IMG/VR virus record: IMGVR_UViG_3300025704_000065
Location: 1 to 34,346 of that record
Direction: 5' to 3' (one strand)
DNA length: 34,346 nt
Origin: a virus
Each line of letters opens with the position of its first letter. Positions within the stretch are counted from its first letter, which is position 1. Below the pieces are notes generated by a model that had not been told where the DNA came from, did no database searches, and was given only the letters and a program-made list of their open reading frames with translations. The translations under genes and the position numbers were made by a program. Of the stretch, positions 19,655 to 34,341 are shown one piece after another.

Positions 19655-22600
19655 ATGAGCGATTACCGTCAAGAAGGAACAGGGAAAGTAATAACTGAAC
19701 AACAATTATTAAATCTTGCTGCAGAAAGTAGCTTCTCTGTAGAAGAAATAATAGAAAAAAACAATTTAAAGTTAATAACCGAAGACTCGGGAAATACAAC
19801 AGGCGCTGCAACAACAACTGCAAATGTAGTGCCAAAAAATCAAATAGCAGATACGGATTTAACATTGGAAAATGGTTTATCGGAATTACAAGATCCTGAT
19901 CCAAAAAACTTCACTAAAAGGGATTCTTTGGTTTTTAACATACAAGAAACTGAAAAACAAATAAACAACTATATAGCTAAAGGAGGCGAAGTTAATGCTT
20001 CAGATGCCGCTGTTTTGCAGGGTTATAAAGATGAGCTAGCGACTTTAGATAAGCAAAAAGTTGTAAAAGAAAAAAATTGGGCTGAGGATTTTGCTTCAAA
20101 TGTTAAATCACCTAGGTTTTCAGACTTAAATAAAGACCAATTACTAAATATACAAAATGAAGCTATAAAAGAGCTTACTTCTAAATACAAAAATAAAAAA
20201 GATGAATATTCTTTTGACGAAACAGATATTAGGCTGAAAGCTACTAGTATATTTGAAAATCAAGTTTTACCAAAAGTTTCTTTAGAAAAAGACACAGCTT
20301 TAGAAAAGTTTGTTAAAGAAAAAGCTCCTATATTAAATCCTTATGCTGACTTTATATCTGACATATATACAGCTGGGGCTCAAGGGCTTTCTACTTCTAG
20401 CTTAGTAGATCCAACATTTGAGTTACTTAAAAAAGGATCTGGCAGTTCAGACGAAGACATAACAAAGTGGATAGAAGCAAACAAAAAAGTAGCTTCTGAA
20501 AACATGCAATCAGATGAAATGCGTGATTTTAATAAAATATATAAAGAAAATGGATCTGGAGTTTTTGGGTTTATAAAAGGGGTTGTTAATAACCCTAGTA
20601 TAATGCCATCACTACTAGTTAGTTCTTTACTTACGCAGATTGGATCATTTCAATCAGAAGAAGTTGCTTTAGCTGCTGCTACTGGAGCTGGTACCGGAGC
20701 TATTGCTGGTACTGTTTTACCTGGAGCCGGAACTGTAGCAGGCGCTATAGGAGGAGGAATAGGAGGAGGGGCTGCTGCTATGGAAGCATCCTTAACTTTT
20801 TCAGAGCTGCTACAAGAAGAAGTAGGTGAAGATCTTAGCTTACAAGCCGTTAAATCTTTATTTGAGAACGAAGACAAGGTAGCTGATTTAAAAAGTAAAG
20901 CTATTAAAAGAGGTATAGCTATAGGTTTAGTTGAAGGTTTAACTGGTAGTATAGCTAAAGGTGTTACTGGTAAAATTTTAAAAGCAGGGTTTAAAAAACC
21001 TGTAGCTACAATAGCAGGAGTGGGTGTTGAAAGTATCGGAGGTGCAGCCGGTGAAGTAGCTGGTAGATTAGCTGCGGATCAAGAAATGGATGTTGCTGAA
21101 ATTGGATTTGAAGCTATTACAGGCACCACTACAGCTCCTATAACTGTAGGTTCTGAATTAATTAATTTAGACAATAAAATAACTAATTACAAAATAAATA
21201 AGGAATTAAAAAATACAGAGTTTAAAACAATAGAACAAGCATTTAAGCCTGAAGCAATTGTCACAGATACTCAAATAAAAATATCTCAAAATAAAAAAGC
21301 GGAAAGTGTATTAAATAATGAATTAAAAAAATCAGTAATAAAAGGAGATATAACACAAAAACAAGCTAATCAGTCTATAAATAAATTTAAACAAACTAGA
21401 AAATTTGCAGATCAAGTTGAAAAAACTAAATTAGATCTTACAGCTGATAAAAAAGCAGAAGTTGTTAATTTACTTTCAGAAAAAAATGATCTTCAAAAAC
21501 AAATTAAAGATGTAGATCCATCTCTTGCTTCCGTTCAAAAAGAACGTATTAATGAAATTGACGAAGCTATTAAGACTACAGCTCAAGAAGCTAGCAAAGT
21601 AAAACTACAAAAAGAAACTAAAGTTGTTGAAAAATTAATTGGCAAAGAAAAAGTTAAAAGTTTTGAAACAGCTGAAGAATTTGTAAAAGAAACCGGTCAA
21701 AGAAAAGACGCAGATGCTTTTGTAGATGAAAGTGGAAATGTATTTATTAATACGCAAAGAGCTGCGGAAGTTGGAGCTTTTTCAGCTGCTTCTCACGAGT
21801 TGTTGCATAGAGTAATAAAATCAACTTTCTCCGACAAGGTAGCGTCGACGAATTTAGTTAAAAACTTTAACGAAGTACTTGAAAAAGAAGGTTACTTAGA
21901 TGTTGTTCAAAAAAGAATTGATGACAACTACAGGTATAATGAAGATGGTTCTGAAAGAGCCTTTGAAGAATATGCTGAAGAATACTTAACATCTTTTTCT
22001 GATGCTATTGCTACTGGCTCTATTGAATTTAACGAGAGTAAATTTAAAAAGTTTATGCAACCTATAGTCAACTTTTTAAGGAAGGTTGGGTATAGCAAAA
22101 TTGAATTTAAAAACGGTAGAGATGTATATAATTTTGTAAAAGATTACCAAAAAAATATTCAAAAAGGAGAGCTATCTAAAAGAGCTCAGGCTTTACAGGT
22201 TAAAGGTGAACAAGTAACGGAAGATATTTCTAAACCTAGTGTTAGTAAAATTAACCAACAAATAGAACAACTTGAAACAGAATACGAACAAGGTGAAGTT
22301 GATTTTGATGTTTACGAACAGCAATTAGCAAATTTAGAAACAAAGCTTGAAAGAGCTGAAAAAGCGGAAGCAACTACAGTAAGTGAAAAACCTAAAACAG
22401 TAGCTAAGCCAAAACCTACGAAAGAAAGCAATCAAGTATTAAAAGAATCAACGGCTAAATCTAAAAAGGAACTTGATGGTATAGGTAATAATCCAGATGG
22501 TTTTAATAAAGACAACCCTAAAATATATACTATATTAAAAGGTCTTATAAAATCTAAATCATTGGTTTTTAAAACTAAAAAAGGTAATATTGTGAATCTT

Positions 22601-25600
22601 AACTCACTCCCTGGGTTTGATATGAACAGTATGGTTAGTGAAACTATAGCTAACATGCTTCCTTACATTGCTAAATTTAATCCAAAACAAAACGATTCTT
22701 TGTTTGGTTATTTAATGGCTCAGCTGAATAACAGAATGAAAGGCGCTTTAAATACAGGTAAAGTAACAGATTCCGCTTTCGATGTTGACGTGTCCGAGGC
22801 AAAAGGAATTACGGCTAGTGAGCCAACTGCTCCTGCTGCTCCTGAAAAAACTAAATACAAAAACTTAGTTCAACAAAAAGTTTTAAGTACAGATGGTTTA
22901 AAAACCGTTAGAGATAAAGTTATTTCATCTGTTAGAGTGCTAAAATCTAAATTCGATGCTTCCGTAACTAAAAACGTAAGCGTACCTCCAATTATTGCTG
23001 AGATAAAAAAGGACATTGGAAAACAAGCTGACATTGTACTTAAAAAGGAAATGGGTGGTATTAAGAACAACGAGTTGCAAAACTACCTTAAAACCAATAA
23101 AAAGGCTATTCTGGAGAATATGACAACCTTTTATTTGACTAAAGCATTTCCAGAAGCAATACAAAAGTCTGTTGGAGGAAAATATTTATTAGATAAAGAT
23201 AGTAAAAGAGTTATAAACGCTTTCGGAGACGCTACCTTTGTTCCTAACTTTGTTAATAGTGATGTATGGAAAGGAGCTAAAATAGATAGGGAAAAAACAT
23301 CGACAGAAGCAAAAGGTAAAACATCGGGTAACGAAATAATAAGAAGAGTACCCAATATAAGCCAAGCTATATCGGACGAATTATTTTTAAGTTCTATTAT
23401 AGGGTCTGACGGTAAACCTATTAGAGGTAGAAAAGAATCTTTAGCTAAAGCTATGGGTGAAGAAATTGCTTTTGATATTATTAATCAAGACTTAAAAACA
23501 GATGGACCTATTTCAGAGGCTTTAAAAAATAACCAAGAAGCTTTAGGTGTTGTTATTACAGAAAACTTTGAAGAAAATATGTCTCGTCAAATTGAAAGAG
23601 GCAACATTAAATTTTCAATTAGTAAAGACATTAACGAAGGAGTTAGTATTCTGCTTGAAAATAGTATGGACCAAAGCTCTACGGCTTACAATAGCTGGTA
23701 CAGTGCTTTGAATCCAGAAACGAAAGATTTTTGGGATGAAGAATTTTTACCTATGTTTTCTAAAATGGATAATGCTACCAGACGTCACTTTGTTAAAAAC
23801 GGAGAAGAGTTATCTAAAACATTCCCAAATTTAAAAAATGGGATTGAAGAGTATAATAAAGCTTTTTTAGGTTCTAGTAACCCTAAAAGCAATCCGGAAT
23901 TAGCAGCCGAGCAGTTGGTTAGCTTCCAAGATGGATTATCTGAAATAATAGGTAATACTCTTTCGAAGATTAAAGGCTTTAAAGTTTACGGAAAAAGCAC
24001 TAGGGTTGGTGATCTGAGCGATAAAACAAAAAACAATTTAACTAAATCTCCTTTTAAAGAATCTAAGGCTCTTAAAAAAGCTCGTGAAGCAGCTGAGGCT
24101 GCTATTGATAAAGTTATACTTTATAAGTCAGGTAAAGAAATTAATAGAATTAATAACTTTATTACAAATTCTATTGACGGTAGCCCTTCTGATGTCGCAG
24201 CAGCTTTTGAAAAAGAGCTAGGTAAAGAAACAAGAGAGGCTAAAGAAGCTAACGCTTTAATATTTGAATACGTAAATCTTGCTGCTTTGGAATATGTTAT
24301 TAATTCTAAAGACGTAAATAAAGCTTTTTCAGGGTATTTAAGATGGTTAGAGACAAACAATAATAATAGTACTGGCTTGAAAGCTTTAGCTTTTGTTGGT
24401 GGTTTTGAAATTGTTAAAAATCAAGCTGTATATTTAAACTCAAAAGGGAAAAAGTATTATTCTAGGGGTGGACTAAAAGTTTTAGAAAATTTTGACAACG
24501 GCAAAGGGCTTAAAGTAAACAAAAAACACACTAACTGGAAAGAAGCGGAAAGCTTTTTAAATAAAGAAGGGTTTTTAAAAAATACAACAGGATTACAAAG
24601 AGACAAAATGATTGCATCCGCTTTAGAGATAATGGGAGAGCATCAACAATCTATGGGCGAAACCGGTATACGATTAAGTATAGCGTTAGCAGAAACTTTA
24701 CAAAGTATTGAAAACGGAGTTTCCGTAGAAGTGGCTAAAGAAAACTATAATATAAAAACAAAACAAATATATTCTAATTTTGGGCTTATATTTAATTCAA
24801 GGTTTATTGGGTCTATCCAAAACAAAGCGCTAGGTTTAACGAGCACATTGAAAAAAGCAAGAATATTTGCTGTTGATAAAAAAATATCTAACAACTTTTT
24901 TACTATAGAAGGTAATAGGCTAACAGAAGAGGGTAAAAACGAATTAAATGAAGTAGTTAAAAACATAGTAAAAGCTAAAGAAACAGCAAGTTTAAACGAT
25001 AAAGTTAAAAAAGAAAAGCCATCTAGCACTAAACAAAGCTTAACTAAAGAATTTAACAGTATAATTGAACGCAACAAAGGCGTTGCAGCTGACGTTACTT
25101 ACTCTAAAATAGTAGCTAAAAGAATGGGTGCAGGTATAGGTAAGTATAAGTTTTATATACCTTCATCTGCAGAAGATTTTAGATTACTTACTGGTTATAC
25201 TTTTTCAGGTAAAGGAAAGCAGGGTACTAAAGATATGGCTTGGTTTGATAAAAACCTAATAAGACCTTATACGGAAGGTGTGGCTGCTATTGATGTTGCT
25301 AAGCAGACGACTAAAAATGACTTTAAAACTTTAAACAAGGCAATGCCTAATATAGCTAAAACTATAGGTGATTTAATACCTACTAAAGATTATACAAATG
25401 ATCAAGCTGTTAGGGTTTATTTATGGAATAAAGCTGGTTACGCTGTTCCTGGTTTAAACGAAAAAGAAGTTGGTGCTTTAGTTGCTTATGTAGCGGGTAA
25501 TCCTGAATTAGCTCTTTATGCTGAAAGTTTATTAGCTATATCAAAGAGTAACGAATGGTTAAAACCAAGTGAGCATTGGGATGTAGGTACAATACTTTCA

Positions 25601-27292
25601 GATATAAATAATTTAACTGAAAAAGGTGGTAGAAAAGCATATTTAGCCCAGTGGATCGAAAATGTAGATGAAATATTTAGCGATGAAAACATAAATAAAA
25701 TAGAGGCTTTGTACGGTAAAAGACATGTATCTGCCTTAAAAGATTCATTGTACAGAATGAAAAACGGTACTAATAGGCCTTCTGGAACAAACGCTCAAGT
25801 TAACAAGTGGAATAACTGGTTAAACAATTCTATAGGGTCTATAATGTTTTTCAACCGTAGATCAGCATTGTTACAATTACTTTCAACTAGTAACTTTTTA
25901 AACTGGAGCGATAACAATCCTGTTAAAGCAGCGGCAGCATTTGCAAATCAAAAACAATACTGGAAAGATTTTTCTACATTATTTAATTCTGACAAATTAA
26001 AGCAACGTCGAGGTGGATTGAGAGCAGATGTTAATGAAGCGGAAATTGCAAACGAGGCAGCAAATTCAAAAAATAAAGCTACTGCAGCGTTGAGCTGGTT
26101 GCTTAAAAAAGGTTTTACACCTACACAAATAGCGGATAGTTTTGCAATTGCATCGGGTGGAGCTACTTTTTATAGAAATAGAATTAACACTTACTTAAAT
26201 CAAAAAGATGCTGAAGGCAATAACTTGTATACGGAAAAACAAGCTGAAGACAAAGCGTTTTTAGATTTTATTGAAGTGTCTGATCAATCTCAGCAATCTA
26301 GTGATCCATCATTAGTATCTATGGAACAAGCAAGTGTATTAGGTAGATTAGTATTAGCTTTTCAAAATACAACTCAACAGTATTCGAGAATAATGAAAAG
26401 AAGCGCATTAGATATTATTAAAAGACGTCAAATGCCAGGGACTACTTCTATGCTGCAAAGTGATTTTTCTAACTTTAGCAAAATAATGTACTACGGAGCA
26501 ATACAAAACCTTATATTTAACAGTTTGTCTGCAGCTATATTTGCGTTAATACCAGGGTTTGGTGAAGAAGAGGAAGAAGAAGAAATAGATAAAAGCACAG
26601 CCGAAAAGCTAAAAAGAATAACTAACGGTAGTGTAGATTCTATTTTAAGAGGTACAGGTGTTAGAGGAGCTGTTGTAGCTCAAATTAAAAATACTATAAT
26701 AGAATACTTTAAACAAAAAGATAAAGGCTTTAAGGGTGATCAGGCTTATACTGTGTTACAAGTAGCTAACCTATCTCCTCCAATTGGATCTAAGCTTAAA
26801 AAGATATACGGTGCTTTAAGAGGTGAACAATACGGTGGTGAGTTAATGAAGCAAAGAGGATTTGACTTAACCGCTAATGGAAGATTGAATTTAAGTCCTA
26901 CTTATTCTGTCTTAGGTAATTTATCAGCTGGAGCAGCTAATATACCATTAGATCGTATGTACGCGGAAATTCAGAGTGTATCAGAGATGCTTGATAATCG
27001 TAATACTATATATCAAAGATTAGCATTGTCGTTAGGGTTTAGAACCTGGGATGTTAACGCTAAAAATGAAGAAGATGATTTAATTAAAGCGCAACTTAAA
27101 GAGGTTAAAAAAACAAAGCAAAAAGAAAAAGCTAAAACTAAAAGAGTTGAAACAGCTAAACAGAAAGTAATAGATAGAAGAAAAGCTTACGAATCTTTAA
27201 CTGAAGGTCAAAAGCAATATATACTTAGTTTAGGTAAAAATGCAAGAAAAAAAGCTTTAGATAAACAAGCAAAACGATTAAAGGAAAAATAA
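19655..27292 (+). CDS. Giant virion ejection protein with HELLH zincin motif
   Basis: This single 2545-residue protein covers 22% of the window. Residues 315-380 and 420-490 carry Gly/Ala-rich hydrophobic segments (for example TGAGTGAIAGTVLPGAGTVA) that could insert in membranes. At 714-718 is HELLH, an HExxH zinc-protease motif, inside INTQRAAEVGAFSAASHELL, with FEEYAEEYL at 770-778 offering a Glu as third zinc ligand. Residues 900-1100 are charged and linker-like. The last 500 residues (including FFNRRSALLQLLSTSNFLNW and PLDRMYAEIQ) resemble the C-terminal domains of very large phage polyvalent proteins that travel in the capsid. The end is Lys-rich. It follows the two ejection-type proteins, so entry into the host with the DNA is likely. 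A glutamate run lies near residue 2303. Confidence 0.75.
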   Translation: MSDYRQEGTGKVITEQQLLNLAAESSFSVEEIIEKNNLKLITEDSGNTTGAATTTANVVPKNQIADTDLTLENGLSELQDPDPKNFTKRDSLVFNIQETEKQINNYIAKGGEVNASDAAVLQGYKDELATLDKQKVVKEKNWAEDFASNVKSPRFSDLNKDQLLNIQNEAIKELTSKYKNKKDEYSFDETDIRLKATSIFENQVLPKVSLEKDTALEKFVKEKAPILNPYADFISDIYTAGAQGLSTSSLVDPTFELLKKGSGSSDEDITKWIEANKKVASENMQSDEMRDFNKIYKENGSGVFGFIKGVVNNPSIMPSLLVSSLLTQIGSFQSEEVALAAATGAGTGAIAGTVLPGAGTVAGAIGGGIGGGAAAMEASLTFSELLQEEVGEDLSLQAVKSLFENEDKVADLKSKAIKRGIAIGLVEGLTGSIAKGVTGKILKAGFKKPVATIAGVGVESIGGAAGEVAGRLAADQEMDVAEIGFEAITGTTTAPITVGSELINLDNKITNYKINKELKNTEFKTIEQAFKPEAIVTDTQIKISQNKKAESVLNNELKKSVIKGDITQKQANQSINKFKQTRKFADQVEKTKLDLTADKKAEVVNLLSEKNDLQKQIKDVDPSLASVQKERINEIDEAIKTTAQEASKVKLQKETKVVEKLIGKEKVKSFETAEEFVKETGQRKDADAFVDESGNVFINTQRAAEVGAFSAASHELLHRVIKSTFSDKVASTNLVKNFNEVLEKEGYLDVVQKRIDDNYRYNEDGSERAFEEYAEEYLTSFSDAIATGSIEFNESKFKKFMQPIVNFLRKVGYSKIEFKNGRDVYNFVKDYQKNIQKGELSKRAQALQVKGEQVTEDISKPSVSKINQQIEQLETEYEQGEVDFDVYEQQLANLETKLERAEKAEATTVSEKPKTVAKPKPTKESNQVLKESTAKSKKELDGIGNNPDGFNKDNPKIYTILKGLIKSKSLVFKTKKGNIVNLNSLPGFDMNSMVSETIANMLPYIAKFNPKQNDSLFGYLMAQLNNRMKGALNTGKVTDSAFDVDVSEAKGITASEPTAPAAPEKTKYKNLVQQKVLSTDGLKTVRDKVISSVRVLKSKFDASVTKNVSVPPIIAEIKKDIGKQADIVLKKEMGGIKNNELQNYLKTNKKAILENMTTFYLTKAFPEAIQKSVGGKYLLDKDSKRVINAFGDATFVPNFVNSDVWKGAKIDREKTSTEAKGKTSGNEIIRRVPNISQAISDELFLSSIIGSDGKPIRGRKESLAKAMGEEIAFDIINQDLKTDGPISEALKNNQEALGVVITENFEENMSRQIERGNIKFSISKDINEGVSILLENSMDQSSTAYNSWYSALNPETKDFWDEEFLPMFSKMDNATRRHFVKNGEELSKTFPNLKNGIEEYNKAFLGSSNPKSNPELAAEQLVSFQDGLSEIIGNTLSKIKGFKVYGKSTRVGDLSDKTKNNLTKSPFKESKALKKAREAAEAAIDKVILYKSGKEINRINNFITNSIDGSPSDVAAAFEKELGKETREAKEANALIFEYVNLAALEYVINSKDVNKAFSGYLRWLETNNNNSTGLKALAFVGGFEIVKNQAVYLNSKGKKYYSRGGLKVLENFDNGKGLKVNKKHTNWKEAESFLNKEGFLKNTTGLQRDKMIASALEIMGEHQQSMGETGIRLSIALAETLQSIENGVSVEVAKENYNIKTKQIYSNFGLIFNSRFIGSIQNKALGLTSTLKKARIFAVDKKISNNFFTIEGNRLTEEGKNELNEVVKNIVKAKETASLNDKVKKEKPSSTKQSLTKEFNSIIERNKGVAADVTYSKIVAKRMGAGIGKYKFYIPSSAEDFRLLTGYTFSGKGKQGTKDMAWFDKNLIRPYTEGVAAIDVAKQTTKNDFKTLNKAMPNIAKTIGDLIPTKDYTNDQAVRVYLWNKAGYAVPGLNEKEVGALVAYVAGNPELALYAESLLAISKSNEWLKPSEHWDVGTILSDINNLTEKGGRKAYLAQWIENVDEIFSDENINKIEALYGKRHVSALKDSLYRMKNGTNRPSGTNAQVNKWNNWLNNSIGSIMFFNRRSALLQLLSTSNFLNWSDNNPVKAAAAFANQKQYWKDFSTLFNSDKLKQRRGGLRADVNEAEIANEAANSKNKATAALSWLLKKGFTPTQIADSFAIASGGATFYRNRINTYLNQKDAEGNNLYTEKQAEDKAFLDFIEVSDQSQQSSDPSLVSMEQASVLGRLVLAFQNTTQQYSRIMKRSALDIIKRRQMPGTTSMLQSDFSNFSKIMYYGAIQNLIFNSLSAAIFALIPGFGEEEEEEEIDKSTAEKLKRITNGSVDSILRGTGVRGAVVAQIKNTIIEYFKQKDKGFKGDQAYTVLQVANLSPPIGSKLKKIYGALRGEQYGGELMKQRGFDLTANGRLNLSPTYSVLGNLSAGAANIPLDRMYAEIQSVSEMLDNRNTIYQRLALSLGFRTWDVNAKNEEDDLIKAQLKEVKKTKQKEKAKTKRVETAKQKVIDRRKAYESLTEGQKQYILSLGKNARKKALDKQAKRLKEK

Positions 27293-27470: not shown

Positions 27471-29195
27471 CTATCCATCACAAGCTAAACAATCTTCATT
27501 CATAGCGTTAGCTGCAATATCTCCACGCAAAACACTTTCAGTTCTAGTGTAATATAAAGTCTTAACACCTTTCTTCCAGGCATCGAAATGAACTTTGTTC
27601 AACCACTTCGGAGTAGCTTCAGATGGGAAAGCTAAGTTTAAGCTTACGGCTTGATCTATGTACTGTTGGCGTATTCCAGCCTGATTAACTAGCTCTAGCT
27701 GATTGATCTCCTTAAACGTCTTAAAAACGTCTTTAATAAGCACATCGTGATCTCCAATTAATATATTGTCAAGTTCATTAATACCTTGTATAGATCCCCC
27801 GTCGTTTAATATCTTATTCCAAACTTTAGAATTATTTAAGTTTAATTCTTCTAAAACTTTTTCAAGCGTAGCATTTTTTCTAATAAAGGTGCCATTAGCT
27901 CCTTGTTCTGTAAATACATTAGCAGCCCAAGGTTCTATCCCTGGTGAGACGTTCCCGCTAAGCTTACTATTAGATACAGTGGGAGCAACAGCGCGCAAAT
28001 GAGTATTACGCATACCAGTACCAGCACACCACAAAGGCTCGCCATAACTTTCAGCAAGAGCCATAGAAGCCCTTTCGCTCTCGATTTTAATTTGCGAAAA
28101 TATTTTCCTAGTCGCGAACTGAGAAAGTAAACCTTCGAAAGGAATACCTCTGTCTTGGAGATACGTATGCCATCCGAGGACTCCCAGACCCAAAGCCCGT
28201 CCTTTTTGCGCGGACCTAATACTATTCTCAAATCCCCGTAAACCTTTTGCTCTCTGAATAAATTCTTCCATAACTCCATCAAGAAAGTAAATAGAGTCAT
28301 ATATAAGGTTAGTGTCTTTCCATTCTTCATACTTTGCTAAATTTAATGATGATAAACAACATACAAAACTGTGTGTCTCATCGGTGTGTAATGCTATTTC
28401 GCTACATATATTAGTCATATGTACCTTTAATCCATTTTCTTTATATGCTTGTGGATTTGCTTTGTTAACATTTCCTTTAAACATAATGTACGGTTCTCCA
28501 GTTGCTTTTCGCTTTCTAAGAAGTTTACTCCATCTAGACCTAGCATTCTTATCTCCTTGTTCAAGGCGTCGCATAAATTTATCACCCACAACTGCACACT
28601 GATGTAGATTAAGCGATTGTCTGTTGACATCTCCTTTAGGCTCTCTAATTTCAAGCCACTCTTCAAAGTCATCATGTTCAATATTGATGTTAACCGATGC
28701 AGCTCCTCGTCTGACTGATGCTTGATTAGTCGCGAGTATTGTGCTATCATAGATTTTGCAAAAAGGGACAACTCCGTCTGATGTTCCATTACCTGTAATT
28801 TTAGCGCCAGCGGGTCTAATTTGATTTACACCGAGACCTACTCCACCGCCGTGCTTAGCGAGTAGCATCATTTCTAAATTTTTCTGCCCAATATCTTGTA
28901 TGCTATCAGCGACATCAAGACCGAAGCAGCTAATAGGTAGGCCACGATCGGTCCCTGTGTTACTAAGAACCGGACTAGCAAGGCATAGCCAACCGTTCCA
29001 AATATAATTAAAAAACGTTTCGGCCATTTCCGGTTTATCCAATCGCCTAGCAACTGCATTAGCGACCCTATAGTATGCCTCTTTAGGCGTTTCTCCGTTA
29101 TATAAATATCCCCCGGATATTGTCTTCTTGTATACGTCTGTATCACCCCACGTAGGGTAATCTTCTCCTTTAATCCAGTTTTCATTCCAACTCAT
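27471..29195 (-). CDS. nrdA: Ribonucleotide reductase class I large subunit (no ATP-cone)
   Basis: This enzyme reduces ribonucleotides to deoxyribonucleotides for phage DNA synthesis. The catalytic elements are complete in 574 residues: redox Cys90 in LPISCFGL, Asn262/Cys264/Glu266 in TNICSE, redox partner Cys279, radical-transfer Tyr548/Tyr549 in KTLYY, and a C-terminal CxxC (Cys569, Cys572) in EDCLAC for reactivation. E. coli NrdA has about 760 residues; this one lacks the N-terminal ATP-cone that gives dATP feedback. It starts directly after the stop of the small membrane protein gene and is the last gene of the minus-strand block, separated from nrdB by three small genes. Confidence 0.95.
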   Translation of the reverse strand: MSWNENWIKGEDYPTWGDTDVYKKTISGGYLYNGETPKEAYYRVANAVARRLDKPEMAETFFNYIWNGWLCLASPVLSNTGTDRGLPISCFGLDVADSIQDIGQKNLEMMLLAKHGGGVGLGVNQIRPAGAKITGNGTSDGVVPFCKIYDSTILATNQASVRRGAASVNINIEHDDFEEWLEIREPKGDVNRQSLNLHQCAVVGDKFMRRLEQGDKNARSRWSKLLRKRKATGEPYIMFKGNVNKANPQAYKENGLKVHMTNICSEIALHTDETHSFVCCLSSLNLAKYEEWKDTNLIYDSIYFLDGVMEEFIQRAKGLRGFENSIRSAQKGRALGLGVLGWHTYLQDRGIPFEGLLSQFATRKIFSQIKIESERASMALAESYGEPLWCAGTGMRNTHLRAVAPTVSNSKLSGNVSPGIEPWAANVFTEQGANGTFIRKNATLEKVLEELNLNNSKVWNKILNDGGSIQGINELDNILIGDHDVLIKDVFKTFKEINQLELVNQAGIRQQYIDQAVSLNLAFPSEATPKWLNKVHFDAWKKGVKTLYYTRTESVLRGDIAANAMNEDCLACDG

Positions 29196-29474: not shown

Positions 29475-29622
29475 AGCTTTCCATATTTTTAATTGTTTCT
29501 AATGTACCTATTGATAGATCTTTTAAATAAGATAATTCATTTATAATTTGCTGAATAACATTAGTTGTTGCAGCCATACGTTTTTCTAAATTATCTAATC
29601 TACTTTGTTTTTTTTCACTCAT
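29383..29622 (-). CDS. Small coiled-coil protein, unknown function
   Basis: This 79-residue protein overlaps the end of the oxygenase-like gene by eight bases. Residues 1-55 have coiled-coil heptad spacing (KKQSRLDNLEKRMAATTNVI), and the end is acidic and low in complexity (ESGKAEEADTSGKTFE). There is no membrane segment or catalytic motif. The gene is inside the minus-strand nucleotide-supply operon, but nothing in the sequence ties it to that pathway. The unusually simple C-terminus coincides with the region where the following gene may start in another frame. Confidence 0.65.
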   Translation of the reverse strand: MSEKKQSRLDNLEKRMAATTNVIQQIINELSYLKDLSIGTLETIKNMESYEQAIEKLKEKVVAESGKAEEADTSGKTFE

Positions 29623-30172
29623 ATTTATAAAACATTATTAATACTACTCTTTGATTTTTAAATTCATTTGGGTATTTACTATGAAAGTATTCAGAAGGGT
29701 ATGACAATAACCTATTATCTCTGTGCCCTATGACTGAATTTAACTTCCATTTTGTTACATCATTGGAATCTTCTGTTAACATACGATTAAACTCTTCGTT
29801 ATTGGATTTTGTATAATTAAATTTATAATCCTTATGTTCCCAAAAAGCTGTTCCATTAAGTTCTGCTTCGTTACTTTTTACATATAGCACAATTGCTCTA
29901 TCAGGTTGTTGACCTTCTATTATAGAGTCATTATGTATACGCCAATCAGCATCTTGCCTCTCTTTAGCTTCTCTTAAGAATGATAATATATTCTTAATCT
30001 TTTTACCTTCGATAGCTTCTAGCTTATCTGTTATGTACTTTGTCAAATTACCAGGTAACTCCTTTATCCAAAAAGATTTACCCGGCGTTTTAACTTCTTT
30101 AAAGTTATTGCTGTAACTTAATAAAGATTGAAAAACATTATGCGGTAGAAAATTATCTTCTACATAAATCAT
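29615..30172 (-). CDS. 2OG-Fe(II) oxygenase-like protein
   Basis: This 185-residue protein starts directly after the nrdB stop (TAA then ATG). It shows the order expected for a 2-oxoglutarate and iron dependent oxygenase with a double-stranded beta-helix: an HxD pair in DWRIHNDSI, a following strand region with GTAFWEHKDY, a distal His in SEYFHSKYP and a basic residue for 2-oxoglutarate in NQRVVLIMFY. Such enzymes hydroxylate proteins, nucleic acids or small molecules using oxygen, and small members are common in marine phages. The substrate is unknown. Its location between nrdB and nrdA suggests a link to nucleotides or DNA, but this could be convenience of operon position. Confidence 0.65.
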   Translation of the reverse strand: MIYVEDNFLPHNVFQSLLSYSNNFKEVKTPGKSFWIKELPGNLTKYITDKLEAIEGKKIKNILSFLREAKERQDADWRIHNDSIIEGQQPDRAIVLYVKSNEAELNGTAFWEHKDYKFNYTKSNNEEFNRMLTEDSNDVTKWKLNSVIGHRDNRLLSYPSEYFHSKYPNEFKNQRVVLIMFYKYE

Positions 30173-31141
30173 TTACCAGATGTCCTCAAAGTTCTCTCCC
30201 TCACCAGCTTTCGAATAATCCGTTGGCCTAAGTGCGAAAAAATCAGTATGAGTGACCCCCCCGGTAAGATGATAGAACCAATCAAGATTAGCTGCTGCTT
30301 TTTCGTCATAAGCAAAATAACCCCCAAGGTCGACGTAACCAAGTTCCACAAGTTTTTCATTTGTTCTCTTTTTTATAAAATGTTTTAAATCGTTAGCTGA
30401 TATTCCTTCTATATCACCCATCTCAAACATTTTGTTAATGTAATTTGTTTCTAAGGAAACCATTGTTTCTGCAGCTTTTATTATATCTTCTCGGCATAAG
30501 TTTAGTAATTGATTGTCTTCTTCACACATATGGCGGAATAACTGACACCCCATTTTACTGTGTAAAGATTCATCTCTTACTGACCATTTCATTTGTTGCC
30601 CAATACCCTTAAGCAAGTTTCTAAGCTGAAAAGAATAAAGTACCGCAAAAGCAGAATATAAAGAAACCCCTTCGGCAAATGCAGAAAATACAGCAAGAGA
30701 CTTAGCAATACCAGTTCTACTATTGCCAGTATAAGATACAAGATTATCAAATCTTTCCGCCGTAGCAGGTTCGTGTAAAAACGCTTCATAGTCTTCTAGT
30801 TTTAATGTTTCGTTTAAATAACTATATGCAACCGCATGTATTGTTTCTTGCGAACCAAACATCATTGCCATTTGTTGGATCTCGTGCTTCGGAAACCATC
30901 CAACAACTTTTTGAGTCCAATAGTCGGACACTGCGCATTCTGTTTGAGCGAACCCAAGTAAAATGTTTCCGACGAGGTGTTTTTCTTTTTCATTAAGTTT
31001 TTCATTCCAATCTTTAATATCGCCTTGCATTGAGATTTCTGTATGTAACCAAAATGCTTGAGCTTGTTTTAACCAGCCTTCCGTGTAATACTCGGGGTAC
31101 TCAAAAGGCTTATATGCTATTCTTTTATCAAATAATCCCAT
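30173..31141 (-). CDS. nrdB: Ribonucleotide reductase class I small subunit
   Basis: This 322-residue ferritin-like subunit stores the radical that starts ribonucleotide reduction. The metal ligands occur at the spacing of E. coli NrdB: Glu68, Glu99, His102, Glu157, Glu191 and His194. Tyr106 is at the position of the radical Tyr122 (ETIHAVAY). The first ligand is Glu where E. coli has Asp84, a variation to note because Bacteroidetes are known to use manganese variants (class Id). The C-terminal acidic tail (GENFEDIW) would dock on NrdA. The start begins one base inside the stop of the 54-residue gene before it. There is no N-terminal ATP-cone, unlike the NrdB of some flavobacteria. Confidence 0.95.
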   Translation of the reverse strand: MGLFDKRIAYKPFEYPEYYTEGWLKQAQAFWLHTEISMQGDIKDWNEKLNEKEKHLVGNILLGFAQTECAVSDYWTQKVVGWFPKHEIQQMAMMFGSQETIHAVAYSYLNETLKLEDYEAFLHEPATAERFDNLVSYTGNSRTGIAKSLAVFSAFAEGVSLYSAFAVLYSFQLRNLLKGIGQQMKWSVRDESLHSKMGCQLFRHMCEEDNQLLNLCREDIIKAAETMVSLETNYINKMFEMGDIEGISANDLKHFIKKRTNEKLVELGYVDLGGYFAYDEKAAANLDWFYHLTGGVTHTDFFALRPTDYSKAGEGENFEDIW

Positions 31142-31457: not shown

Positions 31458-31623
31458 AACACTGTATACCGTATTTAGTTTGTAATTGTTTTATATCTTT
31501 GTATTTGACTTTACCTTTAATTTCCCAGCTCCATTTAACAAACTTGTCAATTTGACGCTCAGCATATTTTTGCCTAGCTATTAGCTTTTCTTGGAAAGGA
31601 TTATTCTTACCGTCTCTTTGCAT
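31435..31623 (-). CDS. Small basic protein of 62 residues
   Basis: The gene starts 43 bases inside the end of the endonuclease-like gene and ends 23 bases inside the next gene. The product is Lys/Arg/Gln-rich (KFVKWSWEIKGKVKYKDIKQ), so nucleic-acid binding is possible. Only one ATG is available in this frame. The double overlap is usual for this block but makes the exact start less certain. No family is recognised. Confidence 0.55.
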   Translation of the reverse strand: MQRDGKNNPFQEKLIARQKYAERQIDKFVKWSWEIKGKVKYKDIKQLQTKYGIQCYGQTRRE

Positions 31624-32036
31624 TCTGCTTGGTTTTGTGGTTTATAAATCGTATAACCAGGAAATTGATTAGTTACTAATAGTTTAAATAACTTCCATCG
31701 CATAGGAAAAGATTCGTTAGCTCTACCTTTTGTTTCAATTATAAAATCTTCGCCAATAAAATCAGGGGTATATTTAATAGGTAATATGCGTTTGCATCCT
31801 CTATTCTTATACTCTCCTTTACCATTAGCCTGTCTTTCATATACTTCGTTCTCAAAATGAAAACCAGATAATAAAACAAAAGTTTCTCCTTCGTATTTAG
31901 TTTTTATACCAGCTTCTTTTAAAGCTATATACATATGCTTCTCTAGCCCGGAAGCAAAGTCGATACCATCATATGATACCTTCTTTGCTCTCACTGGCCC
32001 GCGCTTTCCGCTTCTTCTTTTAAATTGTTTTTTCAT
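31581..32036 (-). CDS. T7 endonuclease I-like nuclease
   Basis: This 151-residue protein carries the PD-(D/E)xK core in the arrangement of phage T7 endonuclease I (gp3): Glu32 in FASGLE, Asp92 in IKYTPDF, then Glu101 and Lys103 in IIETKG. T7 endonuclease I cuts four-way junctions and branched DNA and, with the exonuclease, breaks host DNA to nucleotides. Residues 1-20 are highly basic and would contact DNA. Compared with T7 gp3 there is an insertion around residues 58-84. It follows the MazG-like gene with no gap and lies in the operon with dNTP genes, which fits host DNA recycling. Confidence 0.75.
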   Translation of the reverse strand: MKKQFKRRSGKRGPVRAKKVSYDGIDFASGLEKHMYIALKEAGIKTKYEGETFVLLSGFHFENEVYERQANGKGEYKNRGCKRILPIKYTPDFIGEDFIIETKGRANESFPMRWKLFKLLVTNQFPGYTIYKPQNQAECKETVRIILSKKS

Positions 32037-32411
32037 TTACTTTAGTATTTCTTTATACTTTTCAGTAGCATCTACCAAAGCTTTAGTAGGATTGCCTGGG
32101 CTTTTAATTTCTTCTGCAATAACTTCGATATCATTTTGTGATAGTTTTATATAGTTTGATATATCTACAGGATCCATATCTTCTATTATTTTATCTTGTA
32201 ATTCGTCTGTGTAAGTTTCTTTAGCTTTTTGTAAGTATAACACAGCATCCATAAGCTCTTCTTGCAAGTGATTAAGCCACTCAAACATTTTTGAAGGATC
32301 ATCTTGAAGTGTTACTCCATATTTAGCAAAGCCTACATCAGATCTTGATACAAACTTGTTAACAACACGCTCAACAACTGGGTCTCTAAATTCTATTTCT
32401 TTTTTATTCAT
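32037..32411 (-). CDS. MazG-like all-alpha pyrophosphohydrolase-type protein
   Basis: This 124-residue helical protein contains EWLNHLQEELMDAVLYLQKA, with Glu51, Glu52 and Asp55 giving the first metal-binding half (ExxxD type) of the all-alpha NTP-pyrophosphatase superfamily. A second acidic cluster needed for full activity is not clear, so it may be a degenerate or partner-dependent member. The preceding motif DVGFAKYGVTLQDD is common in small phage proteins of this kind. It is encoded immediately after the GIY-YIG/MazG fusion gene, with a 97-base repeat-bearing gap between them, and directly before the endonuclease gene. Confidence 0.6.
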   Translation of the reverse strand: MNKKEIEFRDPVVERVVNKFVSRSDVGFAKYGVTLQDDPSKMFEWLNHLQEELMDAVLYLQKAKETYTDELQDKIIEDMDPVDISNYIKLSQNDIEVIAEEIKSPGNPTKALVDATEKYKEILK

Positions 32412-32452: not shown

Positions 32453-32519
32453 ACGTTTTTATATGCTTTATACACGTTTTTTGTACTTAACGTGTGCTTT
32501 TACGCGCTTTATAACGTTT
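32453..32519. repeat. Short repeats in the 97-base gap before the MazG-like gene
   Basis: GCTTTATACACGTTT at 32465-32479 recurs as GCTTTATAACGTTT at 32506-32519, 41 bases apart, with one base deleted in the second copy. Further ACGT tetramers occur at 32453 and 32490, so four ACGT cores lie in 65 bases. The second copy overlaps the stop of the fusion gene. This is the longest non-coding stretch in the minus-strand block. It could hold an operator, a promoter or a small iteron array. No standard promoter match is visible. Confidence 0.45.
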
Positions 32520-33267
32520 GCTTTACAAATGTTCCGTTAATCATTTTACCTTTACGCTTTGCTATTACTTTGTAAGCTGAATCAATACAGTCTTCTACAT
32601 TAAGATTTTCTAAAGCAGCTAAGTTTGTTAACACAACAATCATATCACCAATAGCATCGATAACTTCTGGTTTATCTTTATTAAGTAATGCTTTAGCTAG
32701 TTCTCCAGCTTCTTCCATTAGTTTAACATATTGAGTATTAGAATCACCTTTGTCGTATATGCCTCTAACGTGAGCCCACTGTCTTATTAATTCAAACCTA
32801 GAAGCTGCATCAGCTGGTAAATCAGAAAATGAATTAGCAAAAGCTTTGTTATATACATAACATCGGTTAGCATCGTACATAGATGTTCTAGCGTTAGACA
32901 ATATCCACTGTATAGTTTCTTTAGTAACTTTAAAATTACCGTGTGATGTTTCCCAGCTTAAGTCTAAATTGTCCATTAATCTGCCTTTCAGCTTATTTAA
33001 TGGACACGGGAATGTTGAGGTCTGCTCTGTAGCGTTAATTTTCATTTTATTGTTTTTATTAATTAAATTTTTATAAGATTGTCTGTCGACTTTATAGCCG
33101 TAAGACTTTTGAAGTTCTATTTCCATATCAGACACATAATTAATGTCATCGCTAGTAAGTAGAACTTCGTATTCATCTGGTGCATATCCTTGTTGCTCCG
33201 TAACTCTTTTATTAATATTACGTGTAACACCAATTTTCTTACCAGGAATGTGGTAGATTGTATACAT
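32509..33267 (-). CDS. GIY-YIG nuclease-like domain fused to MazG
   Basis: This 252-residue protein joins two domains. Residues 1-78 match a short GIY-YIG fold: YTIYH as the first motif, KKIGVT where YIG is expected (the second Tyr is Lys), Arg21, and Glu49/Glu51 in MEIELQKSYGYKVD as the metal-binding Glu. Residues 160-250 are MazG-like: LMEEAGELAKAL gives the EExxE motif (Glu185, Glu186, Glu189) and EVIDAIGDMIVV gives the second acidic pair (Asp204, Asp208), with an arginine/lysine-rich helix before the end. MazG hydrolyses NTPs or (p)ppGpp-like molecules. The middle region (88-158) has no recognised domain. The gene follows thyA by eight bases. Confidence 0.75.
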   Translation of the reverse strand: MYTIYHIPGKKIGVTRNINKRVTEQQGYAPDEYEVLLTSDDINYVSDMEIELQKSYGYKVDRQSYKNLINKNNKMKINATEQTSTFPCPLNKLKGRLMDNLDLSWETSHGNFKVTKETIQWILSNARTSMYDANRCYVYNKAFANSFSDLPADAASRFELIRQWAHVRGIYDKGDSNTQYVKLMEEAGELAKALLNKDKPEVIDAIGDMIVVLTNLAALENLNVEDCIDSAYKVIAKRKGKMINGTFVKQTL

Positions 33268-33275
33268 ATTTGTTT

Positions 33276-34127
33276 TTATTTACCAACACTTAGCTCTGCT
33301 TTTATAGCAGGTAAAGGATTGTAGTTATTTAATTTGATTTCACTTTTTTCTGGAATTATTAATTTACCGTGATCATCCATCTTTTTAGATATTCTAATCC
33401 CCTCTTCTAACTTTACACTAGGCGATGCTCGTCTTGGTCTATCAAGATATAGTTTAGCTTGATCTAAATGGTTATTATACAAATGACAATCACCAAGTTG
33501 CCCTACTAATTGGCCGGCTTTTAAACCAGCGCCTTTAGCTAACATTTCTAATAGTAAACCGTACATTGTAATATCGTAAGGTAAACCTAAGAATACATCA
33601 GCCGAACGTTGTTGCCACATTAAATCCATAACGCCGTTATTAATATAAACTTGAAAAGCGTAATGACAAGGAGGCAAAGCCATATCATTCATCTCGTGTG
33701 GAGCCCACGCACTAACTATAAGACGTCTAGAGTCTGGATTAGTATTGATGCTATACACAAGATTTTTGAGCTGATCTACGCCGTTAAAATCACGCCATTG
33801 TTTTCCGTATACAGGGCCTAATGTTTCATCAGTTCTACCTGAACGTTCATAATCTGGTCGCCAATACTTAACGCCATTATCTTCTAAGTATTTTAAATCA
33901 GTTCTACCTTGTAATATCCAAAGCAATTCAGTTCTCGCGGCATTAAAGCTTATCTTTTTTCCTGTAAGAATAGGGAACCCCAAAGACATATCGTGTCTAA
34001 TCGTTCTGCCAAAGACAGACTTCGTCCCAGTTCCTGTTCTATCTGCTTTATCCAATCCTCTTCTGAGAATCTCGTTAATGAGTTCTTTGTAGTCATTTTC
34101 TATGTTTATCAAAATAGTATTTCGCAT
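33276..34127 (-). CDS. thyA: Thymidylate synthase (ThyA type)
   Basis: This enzyme methylates dUMP to dTMP using methylene-tetrahydrofolate. From the ATG at 34127 it is 283 residues, close to the usual 260-280. Visible family motifs are DRTGTGT (29-35), catalytic Cys154 in LPPCHYAF, the phosphate-binding Arg in QQRSADVFLGLPYDI and the nucleotide site GDCHLYNNH. The first residues of the longer form from 34202 do not resemble ThyA and would overlap the previous gene by 110 bases, so I use the shorter start, which still overlaps by 35. It supplies dTTP alongside the reductase in the same operon. Confidence 0.95.
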   Translation of the reverse strand: MRNTILINIENDYKELINEILRRGLDKADRTGTGTKSVFGRTIRHDMSLGFPILTGKKISFNAARTELLWILQGRTDLKYLEDNGVKYWRPDYERSGRTDETLGPVYGKQWRDFNGVDQLKNLVYSINTNPDSRRLIVSAWAPHEMNDMALPPCHYAFQVYINNGVMDLMWQQRSADVFLGLPYDITMYGLLLEMLAKGAGLKAGQLVGQLGDCHLYNNHLDQAKLYLDRPRRASPSVKLEEGIRISKKMDDHGKLIIPEKSEIKLNNYNPLPAIKAELSVGK

Positions 34128-34341
34128 ATTCAAATATTTTTGTCCATATTTCTGTTTTGCCATAAGTAACAGGTGTGGTATTAACTTTACCATTGATTTC
34201 AATAGTTATATACCAGGCTGTATCGTTACGTGATTTTGGGCCTATTGCTATATTGTTTCTAATACACCAACGGTAAGCTTTCCAAAGATCTTCATCAAAT
34301 GGAACTTTACCCATATCACAACGTTTCTTTTTTACTCCCAT
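34093..34341 (-). CDS. Hypothetical protein at the window edge, possibly partial
   Basis: An ATG at 34341 gives 82 residues, beginning MGVKKKRCDMGKVPFDEDLW. The frame stays open to the window edge, so the true start may lie outside. The product is a small alpha/beta protein with a basic start and a central strand pair (TAWYITIEINGKVNTTPVTY). It is reminiscent of small DNA-binding domains such as AP2-like strands, but I cannot support that from this sequence alone. It overlaps the thyA start and would belong to the same transcript. Confidence 0.5.
   Translation of the reverse strand: MGVKKKRCDMGKVPFDEDLWKAYRWCIRNNIAIGPKSRNDTAWYITIEINGKVNTTPVTYGKTEIWTKIFEYAKYYFDKHRK

Follow-up and report, generated by a model that had tools for sequence, protein, structure and literature searches.

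The gene at positions 32509-33267, on the minus strand of a viral contig of 34,346 nucleotides (the whole stretch analysed, hereafter the window), encodes in one open frame from an ATG start a 252-residue protein in which a predicted GIY-YIG nuclease domain is joined to a predicted MazG pyrophosphohydrolase domain. This fusion is fixed under purifying selection and is no accident. When viral contigs were searched with the full-length sequence, with each of its parts and with two DNA patterns, several hundred loci were recovered. The same in-frame fusion occurs in 211 distinct full-length proteins, all from uncultured relatives of flavobacterial podoviruses that are mostly marine. The dN/dS ratio was 0.22 in both the nuclease part and the middle region and 0.20 in the MazG part. 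The earlier sequence-only reading, in which one protein combines a nuclease-like module with a full MazG domain, is borne out. GIY-YIG and MazG domains are each already known; no earlier description of the two joined, of the fixed state of this fusion, of the internal start or of the association with a thymidylate synthase (TS) homologue bearing Asp177, discussed below, was found in the literature searched, a body of work that leaves most subscription journals outside it.

Frameshifted or accidental fusions were looked for as a refutation, and the uncut copies were intact single frames with two exceptions. In one (L267, IMGVR_UViG_3300001374_000002), the GIY-YIG frame is cut short by a junction deletion, and the MazG frame that remains lacks Met75; this is the only split copy in the viral contigs, and it may be real or an assembly error. 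In the other (L432, a contig of a Verrucomicrobiales metagenome-assembled genome), the fusion copy is badly degraded. No full-length relative without the GIY-YIG module, that is, no empty allele, was found. The suggestion that the nuclease part might be an inert relic was rejected given the residues invariant in all 211 proteins, dN/dS near 0.22 and the lack of any full-length copy without the module. Among 50,697 named phage records there was no match over 80% of the fused protein. The nearest predicted viral structure is an unnamed entry of 248 residues with 48% identity (A0A516MJS7), so a fused relative already lies unannotated in a public database. In 25 related contigs there was a single fusion copy per genome, barring end repeats or joined contigs. 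Two differing copies (L134 and L151) both lie on IMGVR_UViG_3300047157_000162, which at 129537 bases is about twice the usual genome size and is probably two phages joined in assembly.

The virus belongs near known phages of flavobacteria. Its terminase (44-66% identity) and portal protein (43-52%) are close to those of flavobacterial podoviruses (Elemovirus, Maribacter phage Panino and the metagenomic Podoviridae sp. ctfjg026), and both place the window near Elemovirus and phages of Cellulophaga, Tenacibaculum and Maribacter, as well as ctfjg026. The marine group that bears the fusion probably infects flavobacteria. Some contigs of the group (L428, L429, L432) were binned in metagenomes as Aliivibrio, Halieaceae and Verrucomicrobiales, and these placements are probably binning errors, because the related isolates infect Flavobacteriia. 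The window additionally encodes a very large virion-type protein of 2545 residues (19655-27292), and in Elemovirus and ctfjg026 genes of comparable or greater length occupy the corresponding end of the structural block.

Residues 1-70 (33058-33267, minus strand) are assigned to the GIY-YIG nuclease domain, of the T5orf172/MUG113 type, with catalysis predicted. The T5orf172 Pfam match over residues 7-58 of the window copy had an E-value of 0.0015 and, at 19.5 bits, fell just short of the 20-bit cut-off, while the same domain in four relatives scored 20.5-23.8 bits and passed it. The GIY-YIG catalytic set is complete: the GIY tyrosine (Y5), the K-I-G motif (K11-I12-G13), the arginine of helix 1 (R21) and the glutamate of helix 2 (E49). 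Y5, K11, G13, R21 and E49 are invariant in 211/211 distinct fused proteins, and I12 in 210/211; residue 25, which is His or Tyr in other GIY-YIG enzymes, varies. The lysine that replaces the second tyrosine, pointed out in the sequence-only reading, is indeed present and is the norm of the subfamily; it also occurs in free-standing relatives and at the same position (K73) in the restriction enzyme R.Hpy188I (PMC2630997). An AlphaFold2 model of residues 1-73 (pLDDT 89.9, pTM 0.75) has the strand-strand-helix-strand-helix order expected for GIY-YIG, although a Foldseek comparison of this model with the PDB returned no significant match, so the fold assignment rests on sequence motif and topology. 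A profile of the domain likewise found no match among PDB sequences, nor did the domain alone match named phages by tblastn. Among known types of DNA-recognition domain, none is present as a separate unit in the fused protein.

One could suppose that the GIY-YIG domain no longer cuts and instead tethers MazG to DNA or represses transcription, like the HTH domain of the HTH-MazG proteins of Streptococcus phages. The MazG family has been joined to DNA-binding domains elsewhere, as those HTH_3-MazG proteins attest, and I-TevI is both an endonuclease and a repressor (PMC10448857). We nevertheless regard a binding-only role as improbable, given that Tyr5, Lys11, Gly13, Arg21 and Glu49 are invariant in all 211 proteins and that Glu49 would be needless for binding alone.

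The C-terminal part of the protein (residues 157-249; 32521-32799, minus strand) is assigned by profile, structure match and conserved residues to the all-alpha MazG/NTP pyrophosphohydrolase family, with activity predicted. Residues 169-239 match the Pfam families PRA-PH at 29.2 bits (cut-off 21.3) and MazG at 24.1 bits (cut-off 22). The metal-binding pattern EXXE...EXXD is formed by E186/E189 and E201/D204 (32656-32712, minus strand), with D208 in addition, and E185, E186, E189, D204 and D208 are invariant in 211/211 distinct fused proteins. The modelled MazG half matches solved structures, including 1vmg (TM 0.76 on the target) and the MazG-like protein of cyanophage S-2L (7ody, TM up to 0.70). 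Foldseek probabilities to 1vmg, 7ody and 5ie9 were 1.00, and the E-values are only about 0.01-0.07 because the MazG domain makes up one third of the query. Elemovirus and Panino have stand-alone pyrophosphohydrolases, which were rejected as close relatives (E = 0.03 and no match, respectively).

As to substrate, MazG was for long associated with (p)ppGpp (PMC6850273), and it had been suggested that the fused protein could link DNA cutting to the removal of such signalling nucleotides. The single phage MazG assayed, from a cyanophage, neither binds nor hydrolyses (p)ppGpp and prefers dGTP and dCTP (PMC6850273). Removal of (p)ppGpp is for this reason unlikely, and with the gene lying in an operon for deoxynucleotide synthesis beside a predicted dCMP-modifying enzyme, we consider the proposed signalling link very improbable.

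Between the two domains lies a middle region (residues 75-150; 32818-33045, minus strand) that matches no known family. The sequence-only reading had taken it for some 70 residues joining the domains; such a segment is there, but it is no bare linker. It is a conserved segment (T-E-Q-T-[ST]-T-F ... W-I ... R-x-Y-x-Y-N-K-A) with its own secondary structure, and blocks of residues 71-140 were modelled by AlphaFold2 with pLDDT of 75-92. The whole protein was modelled with a mean pLDDT of 86.7 and a pTM of 0.40, a value too low for the arrangement of the domains to be read from the model. An apparent resemblance of the middle region to "DNA-binding proteins" of Streptococcus phages was rejected, since those carry HTH_3 there and have MazG alone in common with the fused protein. 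In phages SW11 and CHPC1248, the proteins that bear only this annotation (L356 2414-2917, L357 883-1923) combine HTH_3 with MazG, and they offer a parallel instance of MazG with a DNA-binding partner. Designed Pizza proteins, returned as PDB sequence matches of the whole protein, were rejected as repeat artefacts.

The fused gene has a constant neighbourhood. On the same minus strand, a TS-family gene lies upstream (33276-34130), and downstream follow a conserved 124-residue gene of PHROG 11184 with no assigned function (32037-32411), a DUF1064/phage endonuclease I-like gene (31581-32036), and the small and large subunits of ribonucleotide reductase, NrdB (30173-31141) and NrdA (27471-29195). 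This order was kept in related loci (n = 80), with the 124-residue gene found in 79, always next downstream, the endonuclease in 78 and NrdB in 74. The 124-residue protein is a candidate partner of the fused protein. A DUF6445-like gene between NrdB and NrdA (29615-30172) was detected in only 7/80 related loci, so the operon is variable in its interior content. The TS-family frame ended no more than 200 nt upstream of the fusion in 203/219 distinct loci, with a median gap of 8 nt.

The TS homologue has aspartate at the position of E. coli Asn177 (LGLPYDITMY in the window, LGVPFNIASY in E. coli), as do all 349 of 349 readable TS-family frames. Two very different TS types fill the slot, one full-length and the other a short form of 213 residues (e.g., L029 5357-5998). 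Both carry Asp177, and both are predicted to act on dCMP, the window copy as a methylase or hydroxymethylase. Replacement of Asn177 by Asp shifts the substrate of TS from dUMP to dCMP and is a marker of phage contigs whose cytosine is modified; on these contigs, PF01503 often accompanies TS (PMC8670742); PF01503 is the MazG/PRA-PH Pfam family matched by the MazG half of the fused protein. The dCMP hydroxymethylase of T4 has the same aspartate (PMC5175136). Each of 24 related contigs had one TS, end-repeat copies aside, and none had ThyX. Nor did these 24 contigs, many of which are incomplete, yield DNMK (PF21448), carbamoyltransferase (PF02543) or trimeric dUTPase (PF00692), so these genes give no independent indication of hypermodified cytosine.

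These observations suggest that the gene is a fixed part of an operon for deoxynucleotide synthesis and cytosine modification. The MazG half would hydrolyse dCTP, and perhaps other dNTPs, to dCMP and pyrophosphate, which would keep plain cytosine out of the phage DNA and feed dCMP to the adjoining TS homologue. The GIY-YIG half, from the family to which free-standing phage homing endonucleases also belong, would nick or cut DNA with unmodified cytosine, be it that of the host or of a competing phage, and an internal start at Met75 would also yield a MazG protein without the nuclease. Taken whole, with dCTP removal, cutting of unmodified DNA and internal initiation together, this cytosine-modification reading is one we favour tentatively, as falling somewhat short of probable. 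For it speak the in-frame fusion in 211 proteins, the conserved gene order, the Asp177 TS and the absence of ThyX. Counted against it are the absence of DNMK, carbamoyltransferase and dUTPase, the fact that known phage MazG enzymes take several dNTPs (PMC6850273), and the variability of residue 25. Independent exchange of the nuclease also counts against it, since this also fits a selfish homing module with no role against host DNA.

That module is the main rival. A GIY-YIG reading frame may have inserted itself, in frame, ahead of a MazG gene, leaving the Met75 start working. It may spread by intronless homing, in which it would cleave the alleles of a co-infecting phage that do not carry its version, with MazG as the host gene only. 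The sequence-only reading had already raised a link of the nuclease module to homing elements, and the module does have homing-endonuclease-like relatives. Separate-domain homologues were found for the N-terminal domain, as free-standing frames with other tails, zinc-ribbon-like or HTH-like (L269 8828-9226, also in L303; L321 3129-3572; L325 476-958), and those of L269, L321 and L325 are probable homing endonucleases; matches to the MazG part only were contig ends or a frameshift and were rejected as copies of MazG without the nuclease. The known homing genes of the T5orf172 family cluster near ribonucleotide reductase, in 33% of neighbourhoods, and swap domains (PMC10448857).

Moreover, the nuclease segment has been exchanged between phages independently of the remaining gene. 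Some phages have nearly the same sequence from Met1 to about Met75 while differing strongly in the flanks, and the edges of this identity lie near both ATGs. Pairs with at least 0.80 codon identity numbered 247 in the nuclease segment against 9 expected, 5 against 10 in the middle region, and 12 against 0 in MazG, under a site-specific null. The remainder of the gene was saturated at synonymous sites in these comparisons, and the pairs share ancestry and so are not independent events. By raw identity, there were 114 identity islands in the nuclease segment and 0-4 in other windows of 201 nt, a test confounded by the higher conservation of the N-terminal domain, for which reason the site-specific null was used instead. 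Distance correlations and nearest-neighbour ranks indicate frequent recombination throughout the gene. As the pairs are not independent and recombination is gene-wide, the pattern supports homing-like spread of the nuclease segment but does not prove it. A selfish homing module must further be reconciled with the presence of the module in every full-length relative, its single copy per genome and the lack of a recognition domain of known type, and we hold this explanation to be a serious possibility, yet a doubtful one.

The junction itself (residues 66-74; 33046-33072, minus strand) is an A-rich linker whose base composition in the 211 relatives also resembles a translation initiation region. 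It is followed by Met75 (33043-33045, minus strand), a predicted internal start codon. A junction methionine is present in 211/211 proteins, 205 times at the aligned position and six times shifted by 1-3 codons with different neighbours. In the 20 nt before Met75, the relatives average 0.60 A, 0.90 A+T and 0.018 G, and A occurs at -3 and -6 in 80%; before other internal methionines, the means were 28-47% A and 59-71% A+T. The eight codons preceding Met75 rank first of 240 positions in synonymous A/T bias, and of the 60-nt segments folded along the gene, the one around Met75 has the least structure. Within the linker, AAA makes up 96% of its codon choice (76% elsewhere) and AAT 82% (60% elsewhere). 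Where other window genes are rich in Lys and Asn, such bias is missing (AAA 0.83, AAT 0.55, G 0.11). In flavobacteria, initiation does without Shine-Dalgarno pairing and favours A at -3 and -6 together with low structure (PMC6847099).

A methionine kept in all relatives behind a flavobacteria-type start that is A/T-biased, G-poor and unstructured makes a second product likely, and we infer that Met75 is likely used as an internal start, giving a predicted product of 178 residues with the middle region and MazG and without the nuclease (32509-33045, minus strand). We propose that pool-cleaning activity would then be made in excess and that mixed oligomers would be possible. The signal could also be an unused fossil of the gene fusion, with only the 252-residue protein made, for if two genes had fused when the stop codon between them was lost, just such an A-rich stretch and an old start codon would be left behind. 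This seems unlikely, as the signal (Met75, the AAA/AAT bias and the top rank in synonymous bias) is kept in strongly diverged proteins with saturated synonymous sites and is not shared by the Lys/Asn-rich stretches of other window genes. A more elaborate idea joins the two halves of the argument. The two-start gene would make a stand-alone dCTP remover and a nuclease-armed form that spares modified cytosine, a compact system of self and non-self whose nuclease half was recruited from, and is exchanged like, a homing endonuclease; we advance it as speculation with a rather low likelihood.

If these proposals hold, a homing-endonuclease domain has been captured into an enzyme of the nucleotide pool and fixed across a large and widespread group of marine phages, and the fused gene may help the virus to tell its own DNA from other DNA. 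They would also point to modified-cytosine DNA in uncultured flavobacterial phages and provide a clear case of internal initiation conserved by an A-rich context rather than by Shine-Dalgarno pairing.

Among its nearest named relatives, the GIY-YIG/MazG fusion was not found in Elemovirus, Panino or ctfjg026, and ctfjg026 is annotated with an FAD-dependent thymidylate synthase instead. Phage MazG/PRA-PH proteins (PHROG 1992, 715 and 1994; cyanophage S-PM2 MazG; S-2L 7ody) share the EXXE...EXXD pattern and the all-alpha fold, and a tail of the form RKGKMxNGTFVK is common to the fused protein and phage MazG, as compared with the PHROG and Streptococcus members only. These phage proteins, however, are stand-alone or HTH-joined, and none of the named phages searched carries MazG fused to GIY-YIG. 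R.Hpy188I is likewise a GIY-YIG enzyme with the lysine, but it has insertions and lacks a MazG partner. The T5orf172 nucleases (PF10544), including the homing endonucleases of phage ICP1 and Odn, share the Y...KIG...R...E motif and, as here, are modular, with T5orf172 as one domain of a chimeric nuclease, and lie beside ribonucleotide reductase genes. Their known partners (CapR, DUF723 and RepA_N) are DNA-binding, whereas the partner in the fused gene is a nucleotide pyrophosphohydrolase.

The closest functional parallel is found in phage T4, where a dCTPase removes dCTP and its product is modified by dCMP hydroxymethylase. Endonuclease II of T4, itself a GIY-YIG enzyme, breaks down the DNA of the host, and the modified T4 DNA is protected (PMC1564403). 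The likeness is one of functional analogy only, with the nucleases compared at the level of their superfamily. The division of labour proposed here would be the same as that among dCTPase gp56, endonuclease II (DenA) and dCMP hydroxymethylase gp42, but where T4 has separate genes, the fused gene would carry two of these roles on one protein.
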